From Actinomycetota bacterium (lineage in GTDB: Bacteria; Actinomycetota; Acidimicrobiia; Acidimicrobiales; RAAP-2): DNA of 64,000 nt. The stretch spans positions 62,001 to 126,000 of the forward strand of contig JAJPJV010000011.1 in the NCBI GenBank assembly GCA_021324045.1, in the 5' to 3' direction. This document shows positions 25,518 to 54,373 of the stretch, piece by piece. The position numbers and the translations under genes are program-made. The notes under the pieces were generated by a model. The model ran no database searches. It was not told the origin of the DNA and saw only the letters and a list, made by a program, of their open reading frames with translations. Positions within the stretch are counted from its first letter, which is position 1, and every line of letters starts with the position of its first letter.

Positions 25518-27104
<1,587 letters not shown>

Positions 27105-33097: not shown

Positions 33098-33964
33098 TCA
33101 GACGGTCTCGAGCGTGCGTGCCAGGTTGCGCAAGAATGCACGGGCGATCCGCCGGGCACGCTCTCGCGTTTCCGACGGTGTCTCACCGTTGAGCGGGCCA
33201 TCGCGGTGCCAGATGCCGTGGAGCTGGAGTTCGCAGCGCTGCTCGTCGATGTCGACGACGGTCAGGTCTCCCTCGAAATGACCGAGACGGTCCGGCGCCG
33301 TGAGCCGCCAGGCCGTGAGATACCGCTGCGGTGGCGTCCTTCGCCGCGGGGGCCGGTCGGCAGCGATGGAAACGTACGCTTCAGGAGTGCCGAGGAGCTC
33401 GCCGAGCTGCGTGCTGATGCGCGTCAGCGCGAGGTGGGTGTCGGCGCTTCCGAGCTCGACGTGCGCGCGATCGCTGACTTCGACGGCGCTGGGGTGCGAC
33501 CGGTGAGCATCACTGGGTACCTCGTAGGCCCCCGCGGCGATCGCGCGATCACGCCGGGCGAGCTCGGCGAGACTGGTCTCTGCGAGGACCGTTCGGAGGC
33601 GGCTCGTCGCTTCCGACCAGGTCTCGTGCAACGGGCATACCTGGTCCCAGCGGCAAGGACCGCTCCCCAACGCGCAACGCTCGGCGCGCAGAGGGCCCTC
33701 TGCTGCCTCGATCACTTCGAGGACGCTGATCGCTGACGGCTCCCTGGTGAGCCGGTAGCCCCCCTGCTTACCGGCCTTCGAGGTGACGAGCTGCGCCCGA
33801 ACGAGGTCCGCCAAGATCTGGGCCGCAAACGTCGCCGGAACCTCGGTGTCGACGACAAGCTCGCGGATCTTGCGATACCCGCCCTCCTCGAAGGCTCTCG
33901 CGAGGAACAGCGCTGCCCGGGTCACGTAATCGCCGCGGCGCGAGAGCGTCATATCCACCGACAT
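33098..33964 (-). CDS. Rrf2-family regulator with three cysteines and an additional C-terminal domain
   Basis: From the chosen start the product has 288 residues, about twice the usual Rrf2 length. Residues 5-120 are a normal Rrf2 domain: LSRRGDYVTRAALFLARAF, the DNA-reading region TFAAQILADLVRAQLV, wing GKQGGYRLTREP, and cysteines C97-x6-C104-x5-C110 in the position where NsrR/IscR-type proteins hold an iron-sulfur cluster. Residues about 165-288 form a second domain with HFEGDLTVVDIDE and ELQLHGIWHRDG, similar in pattern to the protein at 37571-38347. ATGs at 33952 and 33991 are other possible starts. It is divergent from cox1; a motif site lies between them. Likely an NO or redox sensor, by family. 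Confidence 0.85.
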   Translation of the reverse strand: MSVDMTLSRRGDYVTRAALFLARAFEEGGYRKIRELVVDTEVPATFAAQILADLVRAQLVTSKAGKQGGYRLTREPSAISVLEVIEAAEGPLRAERCALGSGPCRWDQVCPLHETWSEATSRLRTVLAETSLAELARRDRAIAAGAYEVPSDAHRSHPSAVEVSDRAHVELGSADTHLALTRISTQLGELLGTPEAYVSIAADRPPRRRTPPQRYLTAWRLTAPDRLGHFEGDLTVVDIDEQRCELQLHGIWHRDGPLNGETPSETRERARRIARAFLRNLARTLETV

Positions 33965-34002: not shown

Positions 34003-34018
34003 TCTACGTTTATCTTGA
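34003..34018. promoter_or_regulatory. Copy 1 of the TCTAS-N6-STAGA motif, Rrf2/cox1 divergent promoter
   Basis: The site reads TCTAC-GTTTAT-CTTGA, nine of ten arm positions matching TCTAS-N6-STAGA. It is 39 bases upstream of the Rrf2 start and about 170 bases upstream of the cox1 start, in the A/T-rich part of the gap. Such a place fits Rrf2 autoregulation. Confidence 0.45.
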
Positions 34019-34185
34019 CACTCAACGTGCATGGTCATATAAAAGGTGAGTGCCAGGCACGCCTTAGCCGACAGGCCAGTTGACGTGCTGGCCATGCGAG
34101 GGCGAGCCCGGGCGCAGCGGTGCGGGCCCCGACGAAGGACCGCGTGCGATCACAAGGTTGCCGTGATGCGGGTGAGGGTTCTGTG

Positions 34186-35892
34186 ATGGCGGACACGATC
34201 GAAGGAGTCAGCGGCGCGGTCGCGCCAGCACTCGGCACTGCCGTCGTGCACGAAGGTCACGAGGCGGCCGGTCCGTCAGGCGTGCTCAAGTGGCTGACTT
34301 CCACCGATCACAAGGTCATCGGGAAGAGCTACACAATCACCTCGGTTCTGATGCTGGTGCTCGGCGGCATCTACGCGTTGGTGATCCGCCTCCAGCTCGC
34401 CGATCCCCATCAGGCGCTGGTCTCGAACCAGACCTACAACCAGCTCTTCACCATGCACGGCACGCTCATGATCTACCTCTTCGCGGGGCCCTTTGCCTTC
34501 GCCGGCCTCGCGAATTACGTGGTGCCGTTGCAGGTGGGTGCTCCGGACATGGCGTTTCCTCGCCTGAACGCGCTTTCGTACTGGCTCTATCTCACCGGTT
34601 CAGTCACCATGCTGATGAGCCTCATGGTCATCGGCGGACCGGCGTCCTTCGGGTGGGTCGCCTATGCCCCGCTCTCGGAAGCCGCCAACTCGCCGGGCAT
34701 GGGCGGCGACCTTTGGATCATGGCGCTCATCCTGACCGGCTTCTCTGCCATCTTCACTGGGGTCAACCTGGTGGCGACCATCTTCTACCTGCGAGCGCCG
34801 GGCATGACCATGTTCCGGATGCCCATCTTCACCTGGAACATGCTCGTCACCGCGATCCTCATCCTCATCGCGTTCCCTCCGCTCACGAGCGCATTGGTCA
34901 TGTTGTTCTGTGACCGGCACTTCGGAACGCACATCTTCACCGTTCAGGGTGGGGGATCCCCGATCCTCTACCAGCACTTGTTCTGGTTCTTCGGGCATCC
35001 GGAGGTCTACATCCTCGCCCTTCCGTTCTTCGGGATGGTCACCGAAGTGCTGGCGGTCTTCTCCCGCAAGCCGGTCTTCGGCTACAAAGGCATGGTCTTC
35101 GCCACCATGACCATTGCCGCCCTCTCCACGGGGGTGTGGGCGCACCACATGTTCACCACCGGGGTCGTGCTCCTGCCGTTCTTCTCTCTACTCAGCCTGC
35201 TGATCGCCGTTCCCACCGGGATCAAGTTCTTCAACTGGATCGGCACCATGTGGCGAGGCCAGATCCATTTCACGACCGCAATGCTCATGGGGATCGGGTT
35301 CCTCCTCACCTTCATCATCGGTGGCATCACCGGGATCATCCTCGCTTCCCCGCCGCTGGATTTCTTCACCCATGACACCTACTTCGTGGTTGCCCACTTC
35401 CACTCAGTGGTCATGGCGCTGGTACTGGCAGGGATGGCCGGGATCTACTACTGGTACCCGAAGATGACGGGACGGATGCTGCGCGAAGGCCTCGGCAAGG
35501 CACAGTTCTGGTTCCTCTTCATCGGATCGAACGTCACGTTCTTGCCCCAGTACGTCCTGGGCCTCCACGGAATGCCCCGGAGGATCTCCCAGTACCCCCT
35601 CGATCCCTCCTGGCACACCCTCAATGTCGTCTCGACGATTGGCGCTTTCATGATCGCCGTGTCCTTCGTTGTCTTCGTGGCGAACGTCTACGAGTCCTGG
35701 CGTCGCCCGGTACTCGCAGGCGACAACCCCTGGGACGCCCACACCCTCGAATGGTTCACCACTTCACCGCCGCCTCACCACAACTACACGCATCTTCCGA
35801 GGATCCGATCGGAGCGACCGACGTGGGACTACCACCACCCCGACCGCCCCGCAGTCCACAGCCAGAGCCAAGAGCTCGCCGCCTCACACTGA
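34186..35892 (+). CDS. Heme-copper oxidase subunit I (cytochrome c oxidase-type, coxA/ctaD-like)
   Basis: The 568-residue product has 12 or more membrane segments and all hallmark residues of subunit I: heme a/CuB histidines in FTMHGTLMIYLFAGP, FFGHPEVYILALPFFG (His-Tyr pair, so an A-type oxygen reductase rather than NO reductase), WAHHMFTTG, and THDTYFVVAHFHSVVMALV. The start at 34186 (MADTIEG) has a GGTGAGGG site; the frame upstream to 34120 has none. No subunit II, III or heme A synthase gene is near, so the partner subunits must be elsewhere. It is divergent from the Rrf2 gene. Confidence 0.93.
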   Translation: MADTIEGVSGAVAPALGTAVVHEGHEAAGPSGVLKWLTSTDHKVIGKSYTITSVLMLVLGGIYALVIRLQLADPHQALVSNQTYNQLFTMHGTLMIYLFAGPFAFAGLANYVVPLQVGAPDMAFPRLNALSYWLYLTGSVTMLMSLMVIGGPASFGWVAYAPLSEAANSPGMGGDLWIMALILTGFSAIFTGVNLVATIFYLRAPGMTMFRMPIFTWNMLVTAILILIAFPPLTSALVMLFCDRHFGTHIFTVQGGGSPILYQHLFWFFGHPEVYILALPFFGMVTEVLAVFSRKPVFGYKGMVFATMTIAALSTGVWAHHMFTTGVVLLPFFSLLSLLIAVPTGIKFFNWIGTMWRGQIHFTTAMLMGIGFLLTFIIGGITGIILASPPLDFFTHDTYFVVAHFHSVVMALVLAGMAGIYYWYPKMTGRMLREGLGKAQFWFLFIGSNVTFLPQYVLGLHGMPRRISQYPLDPSWHTLNVVSTIGAFMIAVSFVVFVANVYESWRRPVLAGDNPWDAHTLEWFTTSPPPHHNYTHLPRIRSERPTWDYHHPDRPAVHSQSQELAASH

Positions 35893-36033
35893 ACTGCCTG
35901 AGATCAGCGTCGTCCGCCGAGATGCGCGATGGCGGTCGTCCGCTTGGGCCAAGCGGTGACTTCGTGTCCACCGCTGCCTCATCGTTGATCCCCCGATGGG
36001 ACATCCGTCTCGTCCTGAGCCTTCGGAGGCACA

Positions 36034-36374
36034 TCATTGCCAAGGGTGTGCAAGGCAACAGCGGAAGTGCGCATACGCGCCGCCCGCCCGCATCTTTGCC
36101 GCGAACCAGATTGCTTCCATGATCTCCTGATCGCTCGACCCTTTCGGCGTGCGAGCTCCGAGTGCCCGGCGAGGCAATACGGGCACTGGGTCGTATGGGC
36201 CACGGCGACGGCGATCAACTACTTGGTCTTCTCCGGGAGCGCACCGGCTTTGAACACCGTGCGACTGAATCGCTCGAACGCTTCGTAGATCTCTGGTGCA
36301 AGCGCCTCTCGATGGTTTCCGATCGCCGCTGTCGCCAACGGGTGTACGGGCGGATGAAGGTGACTATCGCTCAT
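36034..36374 (-). pseudogene. AhpD-like (carboxymuconolactone decarboxylase family) gene with an in-frame stop and a frameshift
   Basis: From the ATG at 36374 the frame reads normally to FKAGALPEKTK, then TAG where relatives have a Gln codon. It continues LIAVAVAHTTQCPYCLAGHSELARRKG with the redox CxxC of the AhpD fold. One base is then missing, after which the next frame gives SDQEIMEAIWFAAKMRAGGAYAH and ends at 36034. Two independent lesions make a true pseudogene more likely than a sequencing error. It lies 23 bases after the small SFPASDPP protein gene, at the end of that operon. Confidence 0.8.
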
Positions 36375-36397
36375 GATCGCTCCTCAGGCCCCTGCTT

Positions 36398-36583
36398 TCA
36401 CTGTTCACGATCTGGCGCCGGATCGCGCACCGCCTGCGGAGGGTCGCTCGCCGGGAACGACTCGTACCCCCACTCGTCGACCAGGTCCCGGATCCAGGCG
36501 ACTTCGCGAGCGATACGGGCACTGTCGGCCGCCTCTGGGCGCGACCCCCGTGGCTCGCCGGATTCGCGATCAGACAAGCTCAT
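36398..36583 (-). CDS. Small protein with a SFPASDPP motif, function unknown
   Basis: The 61-residue product is hydrophilic and ends in a Pro/Asp-rich tail. The segment DEWGYESFPASDPPQA matches a short motif (D-E-x4-S-F-P-A-S-D-P-P) that recurs in many small uncharacterised bacterial proteins; its role is unknown to me. Its start codon overlaps the stop of the NHL-repeat gene (ATGA at 36580-36583), which strongly supports it as real. Confidence 0.65.
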   Translation of the reverse strand: MSLSDRESGEPRGSRPEAADSARIAREVAWIRDLVDEWGYESFPASDPPQAVRDPAPDREQ

Positions 36584-37668
36584 CGGTCTCTCCCGAGGGC
36601 TACGAGGCAGGCCTGGGATACGTGATCATCAGAGGCTGCCGTCGCCGCAACGATGACTGCCGTGCCGCGTCGTGCCACGAACGCCGGCCAGCACTCGTCG
36701 TTCCTCCTGAGCATTGTCGTGCTCGAGCCCTGGGCATCGATGCGGCGAACGGCGCTGTTGCCATGGTCGGCCACCCATATCGAGCCGTCGGCGCCGAGCG
36801 CGATCCCGGTGGGCCAGCGCAGGCCGACGCCCCTACCGACTCCGTCGCAGTCTCCTCCGGGAGGTTCGCCAGCAACAGTGGTGACCTCGCCATTAGGGGA
36901 AATGCGACGGATTGCGTGGTTCCCGGTGTCGGCGACGTAGCAGGTTCCGTCATGGCTCACATCGATCGCCTCAGGACGACGGAAGCGAGCCTCGCGACCA
37001 AGACCATCGCCGTAGTCGTAGATGGAGCCCGCGACCGTCCTGACCGTTCCATCGGGGGCGATCGCCCTGATGCAATGGTTCCCGGTGTCGGCGACATAGC
37101 AGGTCCCATCGTCGGCGACCGCCACGTCGCGGGGGAAGCGGAACATCGCATCGGCAATTGGCCCGTCACGGTACCCGCTCGCCCCGCCCACGACGAGCCG
37201 AGGAACGCCATCAGGAGCGATCGCCCAGACTCGGTGACCCGGCGGGTCCGCGACCCACAGCGATCCATCAGGAGAGACCGCGAGGCCTGCGGGGGCGAGT
37301 GGACCTCGGGTCGCGGGTTCTTGCTGCCCGCGCGCCGCGGTGACCGCCAACGCGACCGTCCCCGTGCCGACCCCCAGTCGCCAGATGGTCCCCGATCGTG
37401 CATCCGACACGAGGATCTCTCCCTCCGGTTCCGCAGCGAGCCCACTCACTCGGACGGGGAGCACCAGTGGCGCCTCTGTCGACCCACTGAAGGGGGTGAC
37501 CCAGATCCGAGTCACTCCGACCTCAGGCCCCAGGGGCCCTGCGTCGCGAACCGACGGCTGTGAGACGGGATCAGCGCCATGGGTCACCAGCGCTGCTGGC
37601 CCGAACGGCTCGATGGCAATGGCGTCGTACAGCGCGGCACCGGGTCGCTCGAGAGCTACATGGACCAT
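36580..37668 (-). CDS. NHL-repeat beta-propeller protein
   Basis: The 362-residue product has at least four repeats of the form 'DG-x-CYVADTGNHxIRxIxPDGxVxTVAG' with clear units around GTCYVADTGNHCIRAIAP, GTCYVADTGNHAIRRISP and GSIWVADHGNSAVRRID, so it is a six-bladed-type propeller. There is no signal peptide. The start at 37668 has a GGAGGAG site; the open frame to 38259 is a shadow of the upstream gene. It overlaps the upstream gene's predicted end by about 100 bases and is coupled to the small gene downstream. Related proteins are found as lactonases (SMP-30-like) or as binding scaffolds; function here unknown. Confidence 0.85.
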   Translation of the reverse strand: MVHVALERPGAALYDAIAIEPFGPAALVTHGADPVSQPSVRDAGPLGPEVGVTRIWVTPFSGSTEAPLVLPVRVSGLAAEPEGEILVSDARSGTIWRLGVGTGTVALAVTAARGQQEPATRGPLAPAGLAVSPDGSLWVADPPGHRVWAIAPDGVPRLVVGGASGYRDGPIADAMFRFPRDVAVADDGTCYVADTGNHCIRAIAPDGTVRTVAGSIYDYGDGLGREARFRRPEAIDVSHDGTCYVADTGNHAIRRISPNGEVTTVAGEPPGGDCDGVGRGVGLRWPTGIALGADGSIWVADHGNSAVRRIDAQGSSTTMLRRNDECWPAFVARRGTAVIVAATAASDDHVSQACLVALGRDR

Positions 37669-38347
37669 CGCTCCTCCTTTCCGCCCGCGACGTGCTGGCC
37701 TGGAGCGACTTGCCGAGGGTCGCGAGGAGTTGCCTGCCTCGGACTGCGACCGACCGAGGGAGCAGGACCGAGATCTCCGGCTCCCCCGCTGGTTCATACC
37801 GAGCTGATACCCCGCAACGCCCCTCATGGATCGCCGCTTCGAGGGCCGCAGCGAGCCCCGCAAGAAATGCCTCTGCAGTGGAACGGGCGACGAACCAGCC
37901 GATGAGCAGGTCCCCGACGAGGCCAACGATCCCCAACGGGGGACGATAGTTGCCCTCGAGTGCCAGCTCGGTGCTCCCGTCGGGCGTTGGCCTCGCAAGC
38001 AGGTCAGCGTCCATCGTCGGAAATGCCGACCGAAACCACCGCGCCTTCCAACCCACCCGCGCGACCAGGCCCGGCCGTGCACGGTCAGGACTTGCGACTT
38101 GGATCGTGACGGGAACCTGGAACCACCGGAACCAGCGACGCATCGAAGCGCTCGTGACGAGGTCGCCATCGCCGCTGGCGGAAGGGCGAGCGGTGGCGGC
38201 CACGAGCTGATCCAGACAAACATGTACCGATCGCCTGACGTCACGCAACGGCGCAGCAAGGCGACGCGTCACCACCACCGTTCGACGAAACGAGAGGAAC
38301 CCCCAACTGGCGGCCGATGTTCGGTCGGATCTCGAGAATGGTCGCAT
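37571..38347 (-). CDS. SRPBCC-like (START-fold) protein of unknown function, related to the Rrf2 C-terminal domain
   Basis: The 258-residue product has a core (about residues 40-165) containing SVHVCLDQLVAATA, TMDADLLARPTPDG, TELALEGNYRPPLGIVG and a closing helix STAEAFLAGLAAALE, the layout of small polyketide-cyclase-fold proteins. The start at 38347 has a GAGGAGG site. The last 60 residues are Arg-rich and overlap the NHL gene start by 98 bases; the true end may be earlier if a frameshift is present. It is the first gene of the operon and divergent from mobA. The strand-loop pattern of residues 115-165 resembles the extra domain of the Rrf2 regulator. Confidence 0.65.
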   Translation of the reverse strand: MRPFSRSDRTSAASWGFLSFRRTVVVTRRLAAPLRDVRRSVHVCLDQLVAATARPSASGDGDLVTSASMRRWFRWFQVPVTIQVASPDRARPGLVARVGWKARWFRSAFPTMDADLLARPTPDGSTELALEGNYRPPLGIVGLVGDLLIGWFVARSTAEAFLAGLAAALEAAIHEGRCGVSARYEPAGEPEISVLLPRSVAVRGRQLLATLGKSLQASTSRAERRSDGPCSSRATRCRAVRRHCHRAVRASSAGDPWR

Positions 38348-38403
38348 CCCGCCTCCTCTCGCTCGACCTGCTTTGCAGCCTACCGATCCGCGGAGTCTGT
38401 TTT

Positions 38404-38419
38404 CCTACAAACAGCTAGA
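38404..38419. promoter_or_regulatory. Copy 2 of the TCTAS-N6-STAGA motif, SRPBCC-NHL operon/mobA divergent promoter
   Basis: The site reads CCTAC-AAACAG-CTAGA, nine of ten arm positions matching. It lies 57 bases before the minus-strand operon start (38347) and 84 bases before mobA (38503), inside the only A/T-rich patch of this gap. An overlapping hairpin-like pair CTGTTT/AAACAG (38397-38414) is also present. Confidence 0.5.
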
Positions 38420-38502
38420 TTTATTTGCTCGGCATTCCGCTGCTTGCGCCTGTCGCCTGCTCGTCGCGACCTCGGGGGACCCAGCGCTGCCATGCTGAAG
38501 TG

Positions 38503-39204
38503 ATGCACAATGCCAACCGGCCCGATCGAGCCGTCGCGGGAATCCTCCTCACTGGGGGCGCGAGCCGTCGCATGGGCTTCGACAAGGCAACACTGCTGAT
38601 CGATGGGATCGGTTGCGCAGCGCGCGTCGCCGCCGTCCTGCAGGAGGTCGCAGCCGAGGTGATCGAGGTCGGTCCTGGGATCACCGGCTTTCGGTCGATC
38701 CAAGAAACGCCACTGAGTGCCGGGCCCTTGGCGGCGCTCTCCGCCGGCGCCGAAGCCCTGCGACGGGCCGGGAGCCGTGCCCCGGCGCTGGTGCTCGCGT
38801 GCGACCTGCCCTTCGTCACCGCCAAGGTCCTTGAGGTCCTTGCGCGCTGGCCTGGGAACCGTTCGGTCGTACCGGTCATCGATGGATGGCCACAGCCCCT
38901 CTGCGCGCGCTGGTCTCCAGAGGATCTCATCGCCGCGGCGAACCTGGTTCGTCGCGGCGCGCGGTCGATGCGGGCACTGCTCGAGACGGCAACGGTGGAG
39001 TTGATCGATGAATCCCGTTGGCCTGGTCGCTTCGACCAGCAGGCGTTCACCGATATCGACACCCCGGCTGATCTCCAACGCCTCGGCCTGCTCGGCCGTG
39101 ATCGGGCGCCAGCCAACGGATCTCCGAGAGCTGAGCGGAGCCGGGTTCCACGTCCGCCCAAGCCACGGAGCGAAGGCCTTGGAACAGACGGGTTCCTTCC
39201 ATGA
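38503..39204 (+). CDS. mobA: Molybdenum cofactor guanylyltransferase (MobA-like)
   Basis: The 233-residue product has the nucleotidyltransferase signature AGILLTGGASRRMGFDKATL, the metal-binding LACDLPFV, and the C-terminal DIDTPADLQRLG typical of MobA. It attaches GMP to molybdopterin to form the bis-MGD cofactor needed by NarG, encoded 7 kb away. The ATG at 38503 fits the family N-terminus; the frame open to 38425 does not. The last 30 residues after DLQRLGLLG are Pro/Arg-rich and not conserved. Divergent from the SRPBCC-NHL operon across a motif site. A CTP- or molybdopterin-cytidylyl role (MocA) is possible but less likely. Confidence 0.82.
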   Translation: MHNANRPDRAVAGILLTGGASRRMGFDKATLLIDGIGCAARVAAVLQEVAAEVIEVGPGITGFRSIQETPLSAGPLAALSAGAEALRRAGSRAPALVLACDLPFVTAKVLEVLARWPGNRSVVPVIDGWPQPLCARWSPEDLIAAANLVRRGARSMRALLETATVELIDESRWPGRFDQQAFTDIDTPADLQRLGLLGRDRAPANGSPRAERSRVPRPPKPRSEGLGTDGFLP

Positions 39205-39377
39205 CGTCGGCGCCTATGGGCTCACCGCAAAAGATCACCACAGCAGCGGAAGAGGACTCCCGCTCGCTGTGCCACGAGGCAATCGGCGACGTCGGCCGGG
39301 CCTTCAACGGACGCTGATGACCGTCAACCGCCAATGCGTTCCAGCCAGAAGCGCCCCGGAGCCTACGACCTCGGTCG

Positions 39378-40346
39378 TCATAGGACTGCTCCCGACGGTG
39401 GCATGGACCCAGGAATGACCTGTTGCGCGTCGGCAAGCGAATCGAGGAGCAGATGGAAGTAGACGAGCCCGGCGTAGGGCCACCACCGGCGCGCAAGGTT
39501 CGCCACGGCCTCGTAATCGGCCGAGGGGTCAAGGTCGAAGTGTCTGCGCAGGTTGTTGCGAGCCCCCACATCGTCGCCAGGAAGCACATGGAGCCGTCCG
39601 AGCCCTCGGAGCAAGACGTATTCGGTGCTCCAGCGACCCACGCCATTGATCCCCATCAAGACCGAACGCGCCGCGTCGTCATCGACGCCTTCCAACCTCT
39701 CCAGGTCGAGCGTGCCACTGGCCACACGGCGGGCGAGTCGCTGCAAGGCCAGCGCTTTCGATCGACTGAAGCCCAAGCGCTGCAGGTCGAGCACTCGGGC
39801 GCTTGCCAGCTGGTCGGGCTCCGGAAACCCTGGTCCGGAGGCATTGGCTGCGGTCGCGCTGTACCGCTCAGCAAGACGATTGAGAAGATGGATCCCGACG
39901 GTCAGCGAAAGCTGCTGGCAGGCGATCGCATTGACCAGCGATTCGAACACGCTCGGGAATCGCGGCGGACGCATACCCTGGAACCGAGCGGCAAGCGCCT
40001 CGAGTCTCGGATCTGTCCTCGCCAGATCCGCGAAGCCACCGATCTCGGTGTGCAGACCCAAGGTGCGATCGAGGATGGTGCACACGCCGTCTGCCGCTGC
40101 CGTGGGCAGTCGAGCGCCCTGACTGCGCAACTCGACTACAAGGCGCGGATTGTCCCCTCCGCCGATCTGACGCGTTGCGACGACGACCGTTCGTCCTTCG
40201 AAAAGCAGCGTTCGCTCATACCATGTGCCGTCCCAACGATCCAGCGTGTTGTGCGGCCGACGTCGCAATGCCCACACGGTCAGATCAAGCCGAAATGGTG
40301 CTGGGACTTCGAGCTCCAACCGGTGGGTCGATCGTGCGATCTCCAC
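39378..40346 (-). CDS. DNA-3-methyladenine glycosylase II (AlkA-like, HhH-GPD family)
   Basis: The product (about 322 residues) removes alkylated bases from DNA. The helix-hairpin-helix is LMGINGVGRWSTEYVLL, followed by the catalytic Asp region LPGDDVGARNNL, with an AlkA-like N-terminal domain (LDRWDGTWYERTLLF). GTG at 40346 follows the DUF488 stop by 7 bases and is a plausible start; an ATG at 40415 would overlap that gene by 62 bases. It is the last gene of the DUF2249-MIP18-DUF488 operon. Base repair beside NO-related genes would suit nitrosative deamination or alkylation damage, which is inference. Confidence 0.85.
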   Translation of the reverse strand: MEIARSTHRLELEVPAPFRLDLTVWALRRRPHNTLDRWDGTWYERTLLFEGRTVVVATRQIGGGDNPRLVVELRSQGARLPTAAADGVCTILDRTLGLHTEIGGFADLARTDPRLEALAARFQGMRPPRFPSVFESLVNAIACQQLSLTVGIHLLNRLAERYSATAANASGPGFPEPDQLASARVLDLQRLGFSRSKALALQRLARRVASGTLDLERLEGVDDDAARSVLMGINGVGRWSTEYVLLRGLGRLHVLPGDDVGARNNLRRHFDLDPSADYEAVANLARRWWPYAGLVYFHLLLDSLADAQQVIPGSMPPSGAVL

Positions 40347-40353
40347 GGCCCGG

Positions 40354-40824
40354 TTACACGTCGGGCTCTTCGAGCACTGAGCGCAAGACGGCGGCACCGG
40401 AGCGCTCAAGATCACGGGTAGCGGTCAAGAGCACGAGCCGACGCTTCGCTGCGACGTGACGTAAGCGCGCGAGCTCGTCGGAAGCAGGCGGCAGGCTCAG
40501 CTCCCGACGGTAACGGCGCGCGAACTCGGCAAAGCGCGACGGATCGTGCCCGTACCAGCGCCGCAGTTCAGTGCTCGGCGCAACCCCTTTGGCCCACTCG
40601 TCGTGATCGACGGCGTCCTTGGACATCCCCCTGGGCCACAGCCGGTCGACGAGCACCCGATGCTCGCCACGCTTGCGCCCGGGGTCCTCGTAAACGCGGA
40701 CGACACTGACTCCCCGTGTCGTGGCGCGCCCGGGTGCGGGCGCGCGTGCTCGAACCGGCTCGCCTCGTTCGTTCGGTGCGCTGCTTCGAGCTGATGGGGC
40801 GCTTCGCGTCGGCGTCGCAATCAC
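40354..40824 (-). CDS. DUF488-family protein
   Basis: The 156-residue product contains the DUF488 pattern: VRVYEDPGRKRGEHRVLVD, RLWPRGMSKDAVDHDEW, LRRWYGHDPSRFAEFARRY and LLTATRD. The reaction is not known; the fold is small and cytoplasmic. The start is GTG at 40824, whose GTGA overlaps the stop of the MIP18 gene, so translation is coupled; the first 40 residues are Ala/Arg-rich and precede the domain. The longer open frame to 40983 would overlap MIP18 by 160 bases and is rejected. Confidence 0.82.
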   Translation of the reverse strand: MIATPTRSAPSARSSAPNERGEPVRARAPAPGRATTRGVSVVRVYEDPGRKRGEHRVLVDRLWPRGMSKDAVDHDEWAKGVAPSTELRRWYGHDPSRFAEFARRYRRELSLPPASDELARLRHVAAKRRLVLLTATRDLERSGAAVLRSVLEEPDV

Positions 40825-41207
40825 CTCCGCGGAAAACCGAGAATGCCTGCGGCGTCCTCGCTCATCATTGCAGGAGTCCATGGCGGTTCCCAGACGACGC
40901 GCACCTCGACGGGCGCGCCCAGGCCGACCGCGTCCTGCACCGCCAATCTGGCGACTTCGGGCAGGTGCTCCGAGACCGGGCATCCCGGCGTGGTGAGCGT
41001 CATCTCCACCACGACCGTGCCGTCCTCCTCACGTACGTCATAGACGAGGCCGAGTGAGACGACGTCGAGACAGAGCTCGGGGTCGTAAACGCCGCCGAGC
41101 GCGTTCCACGCCTTCCCCAACACGTCTTCAGGGACCATGCGTGCTCGGGTTGGACCGATCTCGAGTGGCCCGCTCGTCTCCGGTGACCGGCCGCCAGCCG
41201 CGGTCAT
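40821..41207 (-). CDS. MIP18/DUF59-family iron-sulfur assembly factor (SufT/PaaD-like)
   Basis: The 128-residue product has the DUF59 core: VYDPELCLDVVSLGLVYDV, VVVEMTLTTPGCPVSEHLP with the conserved reactive Cys, and VRVVWEPPWTPAMMSEDA. The family helps mature iron-sulfur proteins. The ATG at 41207 overlaps the DUF2249 stop (ATGA), giving a tightly coupled operon DUF2249-MIP18-DUF488-alkA. In a setting with narGH and probable Fe-S regulators it may repair or insert clusters damaged by NO; that link is inference. Confidence 0.9.
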   Translation of the reverse strand: MTAAGGRSPETSGPLEIGPTRARMVPEDVLGKAWNALGGVYDPELCLDVVSLGLVYDVREEDGTVVVEMTLTTPGCPVSEHLPEVARLAVQDAVGLGAPVEVRVVWEPPWTPAMMSEDAAGILGFPRR

Positions 41208-41425
41208 GGCGTACGGCGGAAGGTCACCCGCCAATCGCCCCCGCCGATCTCAGCCGCCTCATAGGTGAACCCCTGCGAAGTGAGCACTCCCTCGAGAGGT
41301 ACTGGTTCGAAGGGGGCCAGCACCACGAGCTCCTCGTCATCACCAAGGCCCGCGACCGCCGTCATGATCGCCTCGAAAGGCTCGCCGCCGGCGGCGATGA
41401 TCGGACGGGCATCGATCTGGGTCAT
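41204..41425 (-). CDS. DUF2249 domain protein
   Basis: The 73-residue product is a single DUF2249 domain: QIDARPIIAAGGEPFEAIMTA, EELVVLAPFEPVPLEGVL, and FTYEAAEIGGGDWRVTFRR. The fold is related to TusA/SirA sulfur-transfer proteins but lacks their Cys-Pro motif. The start at 41425 has a GAGGAGG site. It heads a four-gene minus-strand operon and is divergent from the plus-strand gene at 41671, with motif copy 3 between them. A second DUF2249 domain is fused to hemerythrin at 43372-44358. Confidence 0.87.
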   Translation of the reverse strand: MTQIDARPIIAAGGEPFEAIMTAVAGLGDDEELVVLAPFEPVPLEGVLTSQGFTYEAAEIGGGDWRVTFRRTP

Positions 41426-41530
41426 CGACCACCTCCTCACTTGCTGTCGCCGAGACCTCGCCAGCCCCGAGCACCTCCTTTGGTTGCGTGCTCGAGGCTG
41501 TTGGAGCCCCGTAAGGAACCCAATTCTTCT

Positions 41531-41546
41531 TCTAGCCTATGGTAGA
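41531..41546. promoter_or_regulatory. Copy 3 of the TCTAS-N6-STAGA motif, DUF2249 operon/41.7 kb gene divergent promoter
   Basis: The site reads TCTAG-CCTATG-GTAGA; all ten arm positions fit TCTAS-N6-STAGA. It is 106 bases upstream of the DUF2249 start and 125 bases upstream of the plus-strand start at 41671. Bases inside the spacer (ATG before GTAGA) also match copy 4. Confidence 0.55.
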
Positions 41547-41670
41547 TTTACAGAGGGAGCAACGGGCTGAGGTGCCGAGCGACGGCATGCACCGGTGTCC
41601 ACGCCATGGCGGCCGTAGCGAGCTCGAAGAGCGACGACAGCGAGCGACGAGGGACTCAAGGAACGTCGAG

Positions 41671-41964
41671 ATGCCGGCTGAAACGCATCAGTTGGGGCGT
41701 GAAGTGGACCATCGATCGGTCCTCGACCTTCTCGTCACCATGCTCGGCGAGGACAGCGAGGCGAATGCACATGCGACCTTCGAGTCGCTTGGAATCCAAA
41801 ACGAAGACTTGCCAGCCGTTTGGCGAGCGGTGTGCGAGGAATATGCCGAGCGCGCGCTCGCGCCCGACCTCGACCCAGGGATCCTCGAGTCCTCGATGAC
41901 CCTCGAGTCGGCAGCCCACATCATGGTGAGATTGCTCAGTGGGAAGGCCCCCGATGGGGGTTGA
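41671..41964 (+). CDS. Small protein of unknown function upstream of a polytopic membrane protein
   Basis: The 97-residue product is acidic and probably all-helical: SVLDLLVTMLGEDSEANAH, then LPAVWRAVCEEYAERALAPD. I recognise no family. The ATG at 41671 is chosen because residues before it in the open frame (from 41539) look non-coding and the motif site lies there. It overlaps the next gene by 11 bases, so the two are probably co-expressed and may work together. Confidence 0.6.
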   Translation: MPAETHQLGREVDHRSVLDLLVTMLGEDSEANAHATFESLGIQNEDLPAVWRAVCEEYAERALAPDLDPGILESSMTLESAAHIMVRLLSGKAPDGG

Positions 41965-43306
41965 CCGAGCAGCGAGCTCGACGGCTGCGACGGCCGAGGA
42001 TCGAGCCGGGAGCTGGCAGGATCGCCCAGCCGGGTTGCCCGCAGCGGTGCCGCCTCCAGTCGTTCCGCTGTCGTTCTTGGTAGCCGCTTCCGTCGGCCTG
42101 ATCGGCTGTGGCGCGGCGTGGATCTGGGCGGCGAGGACGGCGGCCGTGGACCCCACTGCTGACCCCGTGGTCGCCGCAGTCCACCTTGGCGTCCTGGCAA
42201 CGCTGTCGACGGGCGTACTGGGTGCCCTCCACCAGTTCACTCCCGTCGTCACCCAACGACCGCTGCGTTCGCTCGCCCTCGCACGGGTGAGCTTGATGAG
42301 TTGGCTTGCCGCCGCATGGCTGTTGCCGCTCGGAGTCGCCACCGAACACGAGGGGGTGGTGGAGGCCGGTGGAGGGCTCGCTGCCTGCGCCATCGCGATC
42401 ATCGTCACGAACCTGTCCAAGCCGCTCGCCGTCAGGGGAAAGGGACCACCAGTGACCGGCCTGCGGTTTGCACTGGCAGGTTTCGTCGCCACCGCCTGCT
42501 TCGGCCTCCTCTACGTCGCGGATCGGCGCGGGAACTGGTTCGACCTCACCGGTCACGTCGTCACCGCGCACGCGATGGTCGGGCTGTTCGCCTGGCTCGG
42601 ACTCACCTATGTCTCGGTCGCCGAGAAGCTGTGGCCGATGTTCTTCCTTGCGCACGTTCCCAAGCGCGCGTACGGACGCATCGCGGTGTGGGCTGTGCCC
42701 ATTGGTGTGGCGTTGCTTGCCCCTGGAATGCTCACCGGGGCTCGTGCACTCGGCGCGGTCGGAGCCGTCGTCGTTGCCGGCGGGGTCGGAGCCCACCTGG
42801 CTTCGCTCCTCGCGCACGTACGCTACCGGCGGCGACGAGCCGACCTCCACTTGCTCTTCGTGACCACCTCGGCCTTGTGTTTGGTGGTCGGTGCCGGCTT
42901 GGGGATCAGTGCCGTGTTCGTGCTCCCCCACCAGCACCACCTGGGGGTCGCGTTGACTGCGGCCGGCATCGCTGCCTGGGGCGGGTGGCTCCTCGAAACC
43001 CTCGTTGGTCACGCCCACAAGGTCGTCCCCTTCATCGGATGGTCAGCCATTCGAGCTCGCGGCATCGTCAGGAGTTCGAGCGGTCGGCCGCTGCTGTTCG
43101 CCGACCTTTACGACCACACCTGGGCCGCCATCACCTATGGGCTCGTGACCACTGCGGTGCTCATGCTGTGCATCGGTCTCGCCACCAGCCTTCCCATTGC
43201 CACCGCCTTTGGCGGAGGACTTTTCGTCGCCACCGGGTTCGTGGTGGCGACGAACCTGTCCGTGGCGCCAATCCGCATGCTCGTCAGTTCACCGCGCTCG
43301 GGTTAG
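41954..43306 (+). CDS. Polytopic (about 12 TM) histidine-containing membrane protein, heme-copper/NnrS-like in layout
   Basis: The 450-residue product has about 12 membrane segments. Conserved-looking histidines sit in or at segments: AVHLGVLATLSTGVLGALHQF, GHVVTAHAMVGLFAWLG, LPHQHHLGVAL and ETLVGHAHKVVPF. This resembles the general layout of NnrS and heme-copper oxidase-like proteins, but the oxidase signature HPEVY is absent, so I do not assign an activity. The ATG at 41954 has GGGAAGG at six bases; the GTG at 41939 is an alternative. Its neighbours (DUF2249, hemerythrin, nar genes) suggest a role in NO or oxygen handling. Confidence 0.7.
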   Translation: MGVDRAASSTAATAEDRAGSWQDRPAGLPAAVPPPVVPLSFLVAASVGLIGCGAAWIWAARTAAVDPTADPVVAAVHLGVLATLSTGVLGALHQFTPVVTQRPLRSLALARVSLMSWLAAAWLLPLGVATEHEGVVEAGGGLAACAIAIIVTNLSKPLAVRGKGPPVTGLRFALAGFVATACFGLLYVADRRGNWFDLTGHVVTAHAMVGLFAWLGLTYVSVAEKLWPMFFLAHVPKRAYGRIAVWAVPIGVALLAPGMLTGARALGAVGAVVVAGGVGAHLASLLAHVRYRRRRADLHLLFVTTSALCLVVGAGLGISAVFVLPHQHHLGVALTAAGIAAWGGWLLETLVGHAHKVVPFIGWSAIRARGIVRSSSGRPLLFADLYDHTWAAITYGLVTTAVLMLCIGLATSLPIATAFGGGLFVATGFVVATNLSVAPIRMLVSSPRSG

Positions 43307-43371
43307 ACCGCCATGCCGCAGGCCGGTGCCCGCAGCGGATCGCCAGCCGTGGCACACCTGGGCGCCGACGT

Positions 43372-44358
43372 TCAGCCTGGCGCTCCCAGCGGAACCCGCC
43401 CGATACGAACGCGCCACGTCCGGGGACCCGCTTCCAGGTAGTCCCAGGTGAACTGGCCGGAATGCTCGGCCTCGAACTGGTAGTAGAGCGGCTTAGGATC
43501 GTGGTCATTGACGAGCACGAATCCCGCTCCGGGCTCGAGGTGCTCGTAGGTGGCGAAGATCTTCTCGTGGCGCTGCGCCGGAGCCAATGTCCGGACATCG
43601 AGCTCGGGGTCTGATCCGTCACGATCTTCGGGCCCTCGACGGTCCCTGCTCCCCGAGAACGTCACCACCTCCCGCGTCGTCATGGATGCCAATCGATGCA
43701 TGGCTGCGGTGACCCTCACTGCCAGGTCGGGTCTGGGAACCCGCAGCGCCTTCCACGCCGACGCAGCTAGGCTGCACGCTCGATCAGCGTGCCCAGCACG
43801 TGCGAGGTCACTCGCCGCCTCCAAGAACAACGCAACCAGCGCGTCCTCTGAGTCCGGCATCGCCAGGTCCTCTCGCGTCGAGCCCCCTTGCTGCACTGCT
43901 TCGGCCAGCCGATGCATCTGCACCAACAGTTGCGCAAGGTCCACATCGGGATCTTCACCAAGGGCCGGGAGGATCACCCCGTTCTCCTTCGCCACGTGGC
44001 GATCGAACAGCTCGGCAAAGGCTCTCGCACTTGCTGCGGCCGCTGGCCCGCTCTGCTCGGTGGCGATCTGCTCTGCCAGATCGGTAAGCCTCCGATGCTC
44101 ACCGACCATCTCCTCAATCACGTCCCCGAGCCCGGGGTGGTTCGCTGCGGCAGCGTAGATCGTGTGTTCTTCGGCCATGGCATGGGGAAGCACCTCTGCT
44201 GCGATATGCGCTACGAACGCCGCCACGGCGGTTCCGTACTCACGCCCGTGCTCGACGGCGTCACCGACAGCAGCCGACCGTTGTGCCACCTGCTTGCAGA
44301 GGAGGGCGTGGTGCTGGAGCATCGCGTCGTAAGCTTCGGATTTCGTCATCGTTTCCAC
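43372..44358 (-). CDS. Hemerythrin-DUF2249 fusion protein
   Basis: The 328-residue product joins an N-terminal hemerythrin HHE four-helix domain (residues about 8-150) to a C-terminal DUF2249 domain (about 253-325). Candidate di-iron ligands are His16/His17, His51, His59, Glu64, His65, His88, His121 and Glu125, as in HAMAEEHTIY and HVAKENGVILP. The DUF2249 part reads LDVRTLAPAQRHEKIFATYEHL and FTWDYLEAGPRTWRVRIGR. Hemerythrin-like proteins bind O2 or NO; related YtfE proteins repair iron centres after nitrosative stress. The GTG at 44358 has AAGGA at eight bases; an ATG lies three codons in. Motif copy 4 is 24 bases upstream. Confidence 0.9.
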   Translation of the reverse strand: METMTKSEAYDAMLQHHALLCKQVAQRSAAVGDAVEHGREYGTAVAAFVAHIAAEVLPHAMAEEHTIYAAAANHPGLGDVIEEMVGEHRRLTDLAEQIATEQSGPAAAASARAFAELFDRHVAKENGVILPALGEDPDVDLAQLLVQMHRLAEAVQQGGSTREDLAMPDSEDALVALFLEAASDLARAGHADRACSLAASAWKALRVPRPDLAVRVTAAMHRLASMTTREVVTFSGSRDRRGPEDRDGSDPELDVRTLAPAQRHEKIFATYEHLEPGAGFVLVNDHDPKPLYYQFEAEHSGQFTWDYLEAGPRTWRVRIGRVPLGAPG

Positions 44359-44381
44359 GATCCTCGTCCTTCGATTTTTTT

Positions 44382-44397
44382 TCTACTTAATGGTAGA
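44382..44397. promoter_or_regulatory. Copy 4 of the TCTAS-N6-STAGA motif, hemerythrin/CopD divergent promoter
   Basis: The site reads TCTAC-TTAATG-GTAGA, a perfect inverted repeat with all ten arm positions matching. It directly follows a run of T residues and is 24 bases from the hemerythrin GTG, a position that would block its promoter or ribosome access. The plus-strand CopD-like gene starts about 190 bases to the right. Confidence 0.6.
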
Positions 44398-44587
44398 GGT
44401 ATTATGGGAATGGCGCAACGGTTGCGGTCGAGTCCCTGGCCCTGCTCCACGGACCATTCTCGTCCTCGTGGCATCGCCACGAGCCTGGCCGAGCGCGTCG
44501 GAACCCCCAAAGCAACCTCGACCCAACGAGAGCGATGAATCACGCGAGTTGTCTGCGCGGGGAGCCGGCGAGCATGCTCTGGCTTCC

Positions 44588-45010
44588 ATGATGAACCTTC
44601 CGCTCGCACAGCTCACGCCAGCAATCGACGGTGTTCGGATGTCGTTGCACGTCCTTGCCGCCACAGTGTGGGTCGGTGGTCAGCTCACGGTCGCTGGCCT
44701 CGTGCCCACTGCCCGGCGTCTTGGCGTCGATGCCCCGCGCCAGGTCGCCCGCGCGTTCGCCCGCCTCAGCTGGCCCGCCTACGTCGTGCTCATCGGCACA
44801 GGGATCTGGAACATCGTTGCCGTAGGAAAGGGCCAGGGCACGACATGGCAGGTGCTGCTCGGTGTCAAGGTGGCCATCGTCGTGTTGGCGGGACTCTCGG
44901 CCTGGCTCCACGGCATTACCAAGAGCCGGGTCGGGCTCGCCCTGTGGGGTGCACTCGCCGGTACGGCCTCAGTCGCGGCACTCGTCATGGGGGTCTTCCT
45001 CGCGGGCTAA
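44588..45010 (+). CDS. CopD-like four-helix membrane protein
   Basis: The 140-residue product has four membrane segments; the first contains RMSLHVLAATVWVGGQLTVAG, the pattern of CopD-family copper-resistance/heme-binding membrane domains, and a second histidine is in SAWLHGITKSR. The ATG at 44588 (or 44591) is chosen because residues in the open frame upstream look non-coding. Such short forms may bind heme b or copper. It lies between the hemerythrin gene (divergent) and narG. Confidence 0.7.
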   Translation: MMNLPLAQLTPAIDGVRMSLHVLAATVWVGGQLTVAGLVPTARRLGVDAPRQVARAFARLSWPAYVVLIGTGIWNIVAVGKGQGTTWQVLLGVKVAIVVLAGLSAWLHGITKSRVGLALWGALAGTASVAALVMGVFLAG

Positions 45011-45159
45011 ACGAGGCGAACCGCGTGCCGCAACACCGTTCCAATGCCACGATGGGGTCGTCAGCGTCACTGCCGAACACAAGGACGGGCCCCAGGTGGT
45101 CTCGGACGTCCACGACGCGCGGCTCCTAGCGTTCCGAACGGGAATTCGATAGTTGCTGC

Positions 45160-45350
45160 GTTACCGCGCGCGTGCCGCCAAGCAGACTGGCGTTGTTACC
45201 GTTCACAGCAGCAGCTGTTGCTCGCCATCCGAGCGTGGGGCCTTTGGTGTTCGACGACGGGCGTAAGGTCGAGACAGCTCCAACCATCCCGCCTGGCACG
45301 TCAGCGAGACCGCCGTGGCCCGGACGACACTGATCGCAACACAGGGAACG
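45160..45350 (+). pseudogene. Possible remnant of a MarR-type regulator gene in front of narG
   Basis: Bases 45206-45234 closely match the segment of the intact MarR gene that encodes QHQLLLAIRG (about 25 of 29 identical), and the translated piece QQQLLLAIRAWG is in a frame different from the preceding RARAA-like stretch. The wing and recognition helix are not recognisable. The 463 bases between the CopD-like gene and narG hold no intact gene. The match is short; chance similarity cannot be excluded. Confidence 0.25.
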
Positions 45351-45393
45351 GCTCGCTCCAGCGCGCTGCTCATCACACGTGTTCAAACGATTT

Positions 45394-45409
45394 TCTAGTT
45401 CGGACTAGA
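45394..45409. promoter_or_regulatory. Copy 5 of the TCTAS-N6-STAGA motif, narGHJI promoter
   Basis: The site reads TCTAG-TTCGGA-CTAGA, a perfect inverted repeat with all ten arm positions matching. It lies 65 bases upstream of the preferred narG start at 45474. I see no FNR-type TTGAT-N4-ATCAA box nearby, so this motif is the best candidate for control of the nar operon. Confidence 0.6.
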
Positions 45410-45473
45410 GAACTTGAGCACGGTCGTAGGAGCTGGCAAGCTTGGACGATCGGACGATGGTGACGGGGCGGTG

Positions 45474-48400
45474 ATGGAGCTGAACGGCTCGGAGCAGGCG
45501 ACGAAGACGGAGAACGAGCGGCGCAGGCTCCTTGCAGACGTCGGTCTCGTACGAGCCGCTCGATACCTCCAGCCCGGTAACGCCTCACCGGACGGGCGCG
45601 AACTCCACCGACGCGGTGGACGCCAGGCGGAGGAGTTCTACCGAGAGCGTTGGCGGCACGATAAGGTCGTCCGCTCGACCCATGGGGTCAACTGCACCGG
45701 TTCCTGCTCGTGGCGAGTCTTCGTCAAGGACGGGATCATTACCTGGGAGGCTCAGGCAGTCGATTACCCTTCGGTCGGGCCCGACTCTCCGGAGTACGAG
45801 CCTCGTGGCTGCCCCCGAGGTGCATCCTTCTCCTGGTACACGTACTCACCCGCCAGGGTGCGCTATCCCTACGTCAGGGGAGAGCTCCTCGAGATGTACC
45901 GTGATGCAAAGTCCCGTCTCGGCGACCCGGTGGCTGCGTGGGCCGAGCTCACCGGAGATCCTGAGCGCGCCGAGCGCTACAAGCGAGCACGGGGGCGTGG
46001 TGGTTTCGTCCGGGCCAGCTGGCCGGAGGTGCTCGAGCTCGTCGCCGCCGCACACGTCCACACCACAGCCACCTTCGGTCCAGATCGCACCGTCGGGTTC
46101 ACGGTGATCCCCGCGATGTCGATGGCTTCGTACGCGGCAGGCACCCGCTTTTACGCGCTACTCGGCGGAACCATCCTCTCGTTCTACGACTGGTACGCAG
46201 ACCTGCCCATCGCGTCGCCACAGACCTTCGGCGACCAAACGGATGTGCCCGAGTCGGCAGACTGGTGGAACGCCTCGTACCTCATCATCTGGGGGACGAA
46301 CCTCCCCATCACCCGCACCCCTGACGCGCACTTCATGACCGAGGCTCGTTATCGAGGCCAAAAGGTCGTCGTGGTCTCCCCTGACTATTCGGACCACACC
46401 AAATTTGCCGATGACTGGCTGCCTTGCGCACCGGGAACGGATGCGGCACTGGCCATGGCGATGGGGCACGTCATCTTGACCGACTTCTACCGCGATCGCC
46501 AGGTCCCTCGTTTCATCGACTACGTCCGCACCTACACCGATCTGCCGTTCCTGGTCACGCTGCGCGAGCGTGACGGAGCCTACGTACCGGACCACTTCCT
46601 GACCGCTGCAGACCTCGACGAAGAACTCATCACCGCTGACGGACGCAGGGGGAACCTCGCGGGCGACCGTGGTGACGACGAGGAAGCTGCGCAATGGAAG
46701 ACCGTCGTCTTCGACGAGGCCAGCGGAGCGCCGGCGGTCCCCAATGGATCGATCGGGTTTCGCTGGACAAGCGCCGGAGCGGGACGCTGGAACCTCCGTC
46801 TCGAAGGCATCGAACCGGCACTGAGTCTCTTCGGACGCCCCGAAGCCGAGCCCGTTGCCGTCGACCTCCCACGCTTCGACGTCGGCGAAGGTCAGGGTGG
46901 ATCGGTCATCCGGCGCGGGGTACCGGCGCTCCGGGTCGGCCACCGCCTGGTGACCACGGTATTCGACCTCCTCATGGCACATTACGGAGTCCCCCGACCA
47001 GGACTGCCAGGCCAGTGGCCAAGCGGTAGCGACGATCCCGACATCCCTTATACGCCGGCCTGGGCGGCCAGGATCACCACGGTTCCCGCAGCAGCGATCG
47101 TGCGGGTCGCACGCGAGTTCGCGCGCAACGCCGAAGTCTCCAACGGACGCTCGATGATCGCCATGGGCGCCGGGACCAACCACTGGTACCACTCGGACCA
47201 GATCTACCGGACCTTCCTCGCCCTGCTCATGCTCTGCGGTACTGAAGGAGTCAACGGCGGTGGTTGGGCGCACTACGTCGGCCAAGAGAAGGTGCGCCCG
47301 CTCACCGGATGGTTCACGTTGGCCTTCGCCTACGACTGGGTCCGTCCAGCCCGGCACATGCCGGCAACCCCCTTCTGGTACCTGGCAACCGACCAGTGGC
47401 GCTACGAAGGCGCTCGCGCGGACCTCCTGGCGAGCCCGCTCGGTGAGGGGCGTTTCGCTGGGAAGACCATCGCCGACCTCAATGCCCTCGCCGTCCGCCT
47501 CGGATGGCTTCCGTCGCACCCAACCTTCGATCGCAACCCGCTCGATCTCGCAGACGAAGCAGAAGCTGCGGGCAAGGACGCCCCCAGCTACGTTGTCGAG
47601 GAACTCCGCTCCGGACGCTTGCACTTCGCCGCATCGAACCCAGACGACCCGGACAACTTCCCCAGAGTGCTGACCGTTTGGCGTTCGAACCTCTTGGGGT
47701 CCTCCGGCAAGGGCCGAGTACTTCCTGCGCCATTTGCTCGGGGCCGACCATTCCGTTGCTGCCGAGCAATGCCCGCCAGACCTTCGGCCCTCGACGGTCG
47801 CATGGAGCGAACCTGCCCCCGAAGGAAAACTCGACCTCCTCGTGAGCATCGATTTCCGCATGACCTCGACAGGTATTTACGCAGACGTTGTCGTGCCCGC
47901 CGCCACCTGGTACGAGAAGCATGATCTCTCGTCGACTGACATGCACCCCTTCGTCCACAGTTTCAACCCCGCGATCGCGCCGCCATGGGAGGCACGCACC
48001 GACTTCGACTACTTCTCTGACCTTGCCGCCGAGTTCTCGCGCCTAGCTGAACGACACCTGGGGGTGCGCAAGGACGTCGTTGCCGTCCCTCTCGGCCACG
48101 ACACGCCGGACGAATGCGCCCAGCCTGGAGGCAGGGCCCTCGACTGGCAGGCGGGGGAGGTCGAGGCCATTCCGGGGCGCACCATGCCCCGCATCGTCGT
48201 GGTGGAACGCGACTACCCCCGCCTGGCGGAGCGTTGGCGAGCCCTTGGGCCGCTCATCGACGAGCTCGGCGCAACGACGAAAGGAGTACCACTTCCCATC
48301 GGGTCCGAAGTCGGGTACTTGCGGTCGCACAACGGCACCATCCGCGACGGCATCGCGCAGGGTCGTCCCAGGATCGATCGGGACGACCTGTTCTGCGAGG

Positions 48401-51482: not shown

Positions 51483-51558
51483 TCGTGGACACCGGCGATG
51501 GGCAAGGGCCGGCAACAATGCAGTCAGCCGACCAGGAGGCGTCGATGGGAACCCTGCG

Positions 51559-54223: not shown

Positions 54224-54373
54224 TGTTCTAGGCTATAGCGGAATAACTTCGCGAACGCGCCAGTCGAACGGAGCGATCGGCGAGGAACAATAGCCCGCGG
54301 TTCCTCTCCTCAGGCCGTGTGCCCGTCTCGTGCCTCTTCCGGGAGGCCCACGCCACGGTCCGGCACCGATCGG

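Follow-up and report, generated by a model that had tools for sequence, protein, structure and literature searches.

A palindromic operator in a nitrate respiration island of an Acidimicrobiales bacterium and the ArnR-like, probable iron-sulfur regulator that likely reads it

A 64,000-nucleotide stretch of DNA from an Actinomycetota bacterium of the order Acidimicrobiales (assembly GCA_021324045.1, contig JAJPJV010000011.1, positions 62,001 to 126,000; here called the window) carries an island of genes for nitrate reductase, hemerythrin and DUF2249 proteins in which one short palindrome recurs. Is this repeated motif a genuine regulatory site, and which protein would read it? The original prediction placed TCTAS-N6-STAGA at five promoters of a single regulon for nitrate respiration and nitric oxide (NO) stress and named two candidate readers, an Rrf2 protein and a SufR-like protein. 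The five sequences are present at 34003, 38404, 41531, 44382, and 45394, three of them exact and two with a single mismatch. Allowing up to one mismatch, the pattern matches the window six times against 1.17 expected, a count reached in none of 100 shuffles; the sixth match, at 26179 with one mismatch, is intragenic. The organism's own genome (2.75 Mb) contains four exact matches, three of them within the nitrate island, and given four per genome, the Poisson probability of three exact matches within 3.9 kb is ∼3e−8. Tolerating one mismatch yields 96 matches genome-wide, so the loose pattern alone is unspecific.

Aligning the sites of relatives revealed conserved flanks, and the operator is longer than the form noted earlier: TTnTTCTAGT-N4-ACTAGAAnAA. 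A 32-bp symmetric matrix was built from 124 distinct sites of relatives (140 in total), chosen by consensus match and with the window excluded. Across the 64 kb, it ranked first (score of 29.7) the operator between the genes for a hemerythrin-DUF2249 fusion and a CopD-like protein (44374 to 44405, core TCTACTTAATGGTAGA at 44382 to 44397) and second (29.4) that between a DUF2249 operon and a membrane protein gene (41523 to 41554, core TCTAGCCTATGGTAGA at 41531 to 41546). Third (27.2) was the operator of the gene for the SufR-like protein (54219 to 54250, core TCTAGGCTATAGCGGA at 54227 to 54242), a strong site absent from the original prediction, whose core lies 30 bp upstream of the ATG (54196). 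The operator upstream of narG came fourth (23.7; 45386 to 45417, core TCTAGTTCGGACTAGA at 45394 to 45409), followed by a probable operator between mobA and the 37571/NHL genes (14.1; 38396 to 38427, core CCTACAAACAGCTAGA at 38404 to 38419). This last site is the weakest of the five, scoring 20.3 and 5.0 with two half-set matrices and ranking fifth with both; the maximum over 40 first-order random windows was 9.5. Model R1 returned four matches in the organism's own genome, representing three sites, every one inside the nitrate island and including those of narG and the regulator gene.

The fourth exact match in the genome, on contig C11, was considered as a sixth regulon member and rejected, since it scored −3.8 with the matrix; we take it to be another motif. 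It forms half of a tandem pair of TCTACCA-N2-TGGTAGA palindromes on that contig (C11:57856-57894, L001 1501-1539), beside a gene judged TetR-like by eye, and 16-mers akin to them recur across many family and order genomes.

The operator is kept in front of orthologous genes. We scanned 41 genomes for the exact pattern: that of the organism itself and 40 from the same family and order. Among 20 stretches around matches not of the TCTACCA type, 10 hold island gene orthologs preceded by sites and 10 do not; the orthologs are hemerythrin-DUF2249, a short DUF2249 gene accompanied by DUF59, and a homolog of the ArsR-like regulator gene at 53534 to 54196. A further 40 stretches came mainly from the surroundings of the ArsR-like gene, which is present, whole or as a fragment with at least 50% identity, in 33 of them; in 26 of the 33, a site matching the consensus at 9/12 positions or better lies directly upstream of it. 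Counting sites of this quality no more than 200 bp upstream, we found them in 34/43 hemerythrin-DUF2249, 30/35 DUF2249, 60/79 ArsR-like, and 13/40 membrane protein orthologs, while DUF59 (1/33) and unassigned genes (56/1144) had few. Circularity was reduced by cross-training with a 12-bit cutoff. Trained on 63 sites of hemerythrin and DUF2249 genes, a matrix recovered 63/79 regulator promoters versus 0/32 Rrf2 promoters and 43/1120 other genes, and one trained on 58 regulator sites recovered all 37 hemerythrin-DUF2249 and all 35 DUF2249 promoters, with 42/1120 other genes.

The original prediction proposed judging the motif by its frequency inside genes relative to promoters and by its retention upstream of orthologs, and both comparisons favor it. 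Matches of at least 15 bits number 2 in 1.60 Mb of genic sequence versus 293 in 0.51 Mb of intergenic sequence, in fetched loci that overlap in part and were selected around island genes. When regulator loci were fetched by protein alone (the best 80 of 202, giving 75 distinct promoters), 60/75 promoters held a site at 9/12 or better, versus 3/75 with reversed arms and 39/1500 shuffles. The site typically lies ∼39 bp upstream of the aligned regulator start, or 24 bp by called starts, which come from a simple in-house caller. These best 80 loci are mostly Actinomycetes bins, with finer names nearly all Acidimicrobiaceae or Acidimicrobiales; other titles include one Bacillota and one Streptosporangiaceae, and the sole record not labeled as a metagenome-assembled genome is Acidiferrimicrobium sp. 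IK, whose locus L266 carries the regulator together with two strong sites. In two relatives' loci (L198 5301-5326 and L199 8358-8383), two operators overlap, their half-sites spaced 10 bp apart. Judged by these sequence comparisons, the repeated motif is a genuine regulatory site that is kept in relatives.

The gene behind the third-ranked site (53534 to 54196, minus strand) encodes an ArnR/SufR-like winged helix-turn-helix (HTH) protein of 220 amino acids (Pfam HTH_20 and HTH_5). The cysteines C158-x13-C172-x31-C204 and H175 are invariant in an alignment of 20 sequences. Its structure model, of fair confidence (pLDDT 86, pTM 0.61), is matched by 50 listed solved structures over 72 to 108 columns, chiefly in the winged HTH. 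The gene lies beyond narGHJI and a SLAC1-type channel gene, convergent with them; many relatives had no detected nar gene next to the ArsR-like regulator. This is the second reader named in the original prediction, and autoregulatory sites, gene neighborhood, and co-occurrence support it strongly. We consider it probable, from this sequence evidence, that an ArnR-like iron-sulfur (Fe-S) repressor encoded here reads the operators and is released by NO.

ArnR of Corynebacterium glutamicum offers the closest comparison. The portion of PMC12343034 available to us describes C179, C193, and C223 (C-x13-C-x29-C), a conserved histidine and a [4Fe-4S] cluster, a gene that directly follows narKGHJI, loss of DNA binding in response to NO, and nar as target, with hmp also named. 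The protein studied here shares the winged-HTH N terminus, three cysteines and a histidine toward the C terminus, a gene beyond the nar operon, and nar as a possible target, a likeness of described residues and gene place rather than of compared protein sequences and operators. It differs from that account in its second cysteine spacing (x31 versus x29), in a gene convergent with the nar operon, and in a regulon that, among the genes searched, to which hmp did not belong, centers on hemerythrin-DUF2249 and the DUF2249-DUF59-DUF488 operon. No letters of the ArnR operator were found in that portion of PMC12343034, nor by term search in PMC10436651 and PMC8959459. SufR of Mycobacterium tuberculosis (Rv1460) has C203, C216, and C244 according to the accessible part of PMC6034842, and SufR proteins (Rv1460 and cyanobacterial) are likewise autoregulated, with a site ∼20 bp upstream of the start and three cysteines in the C-terminal part, as far as that part goes. 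Its spacing is x12/x27 versus x13/x31 here, and the NCBIfam model SufR_cyano (TIGR02702) scored our protein at 27.9 bits, short of its cutoff of 178.8; no suf operon was found among the window genes searched. By residue count, the cysteine spacing is nearer to that of ArnR than to that of SufR. Weaker homologs in the phylum mostly carry a similar pattern, so the pattern is not specific to ArnR.

Regulator, targets, and motif occur together across genomes. Among 100 genomes of the family, the regulator was found in 32 (E value of 1e−30 or better, leaving out a weaker match in genome G114). Hemerythrin-DUF2249 is encoded by 27/32 regulator genomes versus 2/68 without it, so that 27 of the 29 genomes having hemerythrin-DUF2249 have the regulator; nar occurs in 12/32 versus 1/68 and the motif in 21/32 versus 8/68. 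A survey of 296 genomes of the phylum, of which 72 matched and 30 loci were returned, gave five close homologs outside the family, all with a site of 21.2 to 28.9 bits, located upstream of the regulator in four (L359 and L363 to L365) and of the preceding gene in L362. The very close protein of L359 makes contamination or transfer possible there. Locus L361, from the same family, scored 19.7 bits, and the 23 weaker homologs among the returned loci (L366 to L388) reached at most 16.4 bits. On a tree, the operator label requires one change (support 94/93), which lends weak support, with all 19 A1 relatives labeled as having the operator beforehand, five of them (L051 and L190 to L193) failing the 12-bit cutoff, and L361 dropped. 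Plasmid homologs, in 51 records, have less than 60% identity (best ∼30%), and the top matrix scores in the examined Rhodococcus and Nocardioides plasmid stretches were 5.9 and 7.6.

On plasmid pNOCA01 of Nocardioides sp. JS614 (L390), an ArnR-like HTH gene adjoins DUF2249, fdxA, ctaD, and aceE, and an aceE-like gene lies ∼2 kb from the regulator in L167. In two genomes, a narG homolog (63 to 68% identity) stands directly beside a distant ArnR-like gene of 30 to 34% identity (L203 8811-13223 in G059 and L202 in G114).

How would the regulator act? The sequence TANNNT occurs at one fixed offset within the operator in 51/60 selected regulator promoters. Of the 34 hemerythrin promoters, 15 have it 2 bp 3′ of the core and 15 within the core (offset 7), a further 20 TANNNT at offset 2 being partly a consequence of the arm sequence; in DUF2249 promoters, it most often lies 5 bp ahead of the core (13/30). 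Overlap of the operator with the −10 box, or a position next to it, would suit repression. In the mechanism that we propose, the sites are operators of ∼26 bp for the winged-helix protein encoded at 53534 to 54196, a probable Fe-S regulator. A dimer with intact Fe-S clusters would occupy the palindrome, on or next to the −10 box, and repress, and NO, or oxidative cluster loss, would free the operator. The genes derepressed would be the regulator itself, hemerythrin-DUF2249, and DUF2249-DUF59-DUF488-glycosylase, and here also narGHJI and probably mobA, which would switch nitrate respiration together with the repair of iron proteins damaged by NO. Together with the link between DUF2249 and denitrification reported, in the parts available, for haloarchaea (PMC11218638) and Thermus (PMC6282519), the target set suggests that the regulon answers NO damage to iron proteins and that nar has been coupled to it in this species.

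Evidence for the single nitrate and NO stress regulon of the original prediction is strong where hemerythrin-DUF2249, the DUF2249 operon, and the gene of the ArsR-like regulator are concerned, which share an operator conserved in relatives. For narG, there is a site in the window, and for mobA the matrix score of the site at 38404 speaks for membership. As a core target, narG was rejected, since the conservation expected of one is mostly absent. Five of the 13 narG loci of relatives (L316, L317, L318, L320, and L324) carry instead, ∼100 bp ahead of the aligned start of narG, a TCCAYCCRRCGGTAGA-like sequence that scores −7.4 to 4.8 with the operator matrix and is perhaps a divergent narG operator.

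The same protein might read the operators but activate, or sense iron or oxidants instead of NO, an unlikely reading that nonetheless deserves weight. SufR relatives respond to Fe-S status, according to the accessible part of PMC6034842, and relatives' sites also precede genes for a 1-Cys peroxiredoxin and CMD-family proteins. The constant place of TANNNT inside the operator of regulator promoters speaks for repression instead, and the targets fit NO damage.

Several observations weigh against the ArnR-like protein as reader of a conserved operator. Model R1 passed over the sites at 44382 and 38404, both supported by the matrix, which means that further sites may exist elsewhere in the genome. 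Regulator promoters fell below the 12-bit cutoff in 16/79 cases, including some whose starts were probably called too early, and no 9/12 site was listed at the regulator in L190, L191, L193, and L194 either. The narG site, a 12/12 consensus match in the window, reaches at least 12 bits in only 2/13 relatives' loci (from 12 genomes; 28.4 and 13.5), one of them common to a divergent hemerythrin-DUF2249 gene, and 0/3 promoters of NHL orthologs have a site. The family genomes are related, so Fisher P values for co-occurrence are too small. Genome G047 has a weak hemerythrin homolog, and no site was found there; the one listed match in G055 scored −9.0 and one of two in G016 scored −5.3, yet both genomes were counted as having regulator and motif. 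Finally, of the eight motif-bearing genomes without the regulator, six, in which it was not found at an E value of 1e−15, have sites of at least 12.9 bits (G068, 35.7; G082, 34.5; G063, 26.0; G093, 19.9; G081, 15.8; G041, 12.9), the other two (G084 and G077) scoring below 0. The site of G082 lies in front of a CMD-family gene and that of G068 in a hemerythrin and DUF2249 stretch.

These six genomes, and the regulator copies without a site, are what would be expected if a different transcription factor, encoded elsewhere, read the sites and the ArsR-like gene were merely one target. We consider this improbable. The regulator is the constant carrier and a frequent neighbor of the site, other families included, and nearly all genomes with hemerythrin-DUF2249 encode it. 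The six genomes may be incomplete, G068 being fragmented with 9% contamination, or may hold more distant homologs.

The other reader named at the outset, the Rrf2 protein (33098 to 33964) of the NsrR/IscR superfamily, is very unlikely. Rrf2 proteins include NO and Fe-S sensors, this one is encoded in the same island, and the motif co-occurs with an Rrf2 ortholog in 20/37 genomes versus 9/63 without one. With the Rrf2 gene held constant, the motif tracks the ArsR-like gene (18/27 Rrf2-bearing genomes with that regulator versus 2/10 without), which counts against Rrf2 as reader. None of 32 Rrf2 orthologs has an upstream site with either cross-trained matrix; at 9/12 or better within 200 bp, 2/43 do, and among 40 stretches around Rrf2 orthologs, an intergenic site occurs in two, one of which adjoins an ArsR-like gene. 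The sequence at 34003, predicted as a site shared by Rrf2 and cox1, scored −11.6 and ranked 124th, a chance match (cox1 ortholog promoters were not fetched). On this score, the upstream counts, and the co-distribution, the Rrf2 protein was dismissed. It is long, with a C-terminal extension of ∼150 residues, and several relatives have a second Rrf2 gene ∼4 kb away (L099, L100, and L103). It is hardly credible that all five sequences resemble one another by chance within AT-rich DNA, for although one of them, 34003, is chance, the independent matrix, the random windows, and conservation refute this for the other four, least firmly for 38404.

Two described systems recall the arrangement of the ArnR-like regulon. 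In Haloferax mediterranei, a single motif, CGAAYATDKTYG, likewise recurs across a denitrification cluster that includes DUF2249 genes, but its sequence is different and its setting archaeal, as described in the accessible part of PMC11218638, where its regulator is not named. The DUF2249 proteins DrpA and DrpB of Thermus, with Dnr, adjoin nar and affect its expression; there, expression depends on DnrT, and an ArnR-like protein is not mentioned in the part of PMC6282519 available to us. Among the matches listed in our literature search, which mostly did not extend to subscription papers, no published report on this regulator, motif, or regulon was found.

The island genes behind the operators lie on both strands. 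On the minus strand are hemerythrin-DUF2249 (43372 to 44358; PF01814 and PF10006), the DUF2249 gene that opens the operon (41204 to 41425; PF10006), a DUF59 Fe-S assembly gene (40821 to 41138; PF01883), a DUF488 open frame (40354 to 40983; PF22752 and PF04343), and an HhH-GPD DNA glycosylase gene (39378 to 40085; PF00730). The Pfam match of DUF488 spans residues 93 to 206, so its real start is probably downstream. On the plus strand are a MobA-like nucleotidyltransferase gene (38503 to 39204; PF12804), a CopD-like membrane protein gene (44588 to 45010; PF05425 below threshold, 22 versus 32.1 bits), narG (45474 to 49242; NCBIfam narG for the first part, and tblastn), narH, narJ, and narI (49243 to 52320; Pfam), and the SLAC1-family anion channel gene that converges with the regulator gene (52400 to 53467; PF03595). 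The narG gene changes frame near 47714: NarG of relatives matches one frame to ∼47714 and another from 47716, which may be either an assembly error or a real frameshift. The plus-strand gene at 42146 to 43306 encodes a conserved multi-transmembrane protein with a predicted heme-copper-oxidase-like fold (alignment, model, and Foldseek). The model is similar to subunits of cbb3 oxidase and NO reductase (TMq of at most 0.68, best Foldseek E value of 2.2e−3), and the family, encoded beside hemerythrin-DUF2249 and without a Pfam or NCBIfam match, has invariant histidines, including a His-x-His (alignment A3).

A wider reading, which we offer tentatively and hold to be somewhat less likely than its opposite, is that the motif may be the sequence-defined operator of an ArnR-like Fe-S regulator clade centered on the Acidimicrobiales. 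This clade would command a distinct regulon for NO and Fe-S damage, comprising hemerythrin-DUF2249, DUF2249-DUF59-DUF488-glycosylase, the membrane protein of heme-copper-oxidase-like predicted fold, and the genes for 1-Cys peroxiredoxin and CMD-family proteins. Some species would have added nar to it, and DUF2249 proteins and the membrane protein would be unrecognized parts of NO handling. If this is true, the ArnR-like group of Fe-S regulators would have a recognizable DNA address, and control of the ArnR type would extend from nar and hmp in Corynebacterium to the mostly uncultivated Acidimicrobiales. The unexplained DUF2249 family would then be tied to a regulon identifiable from sequence.

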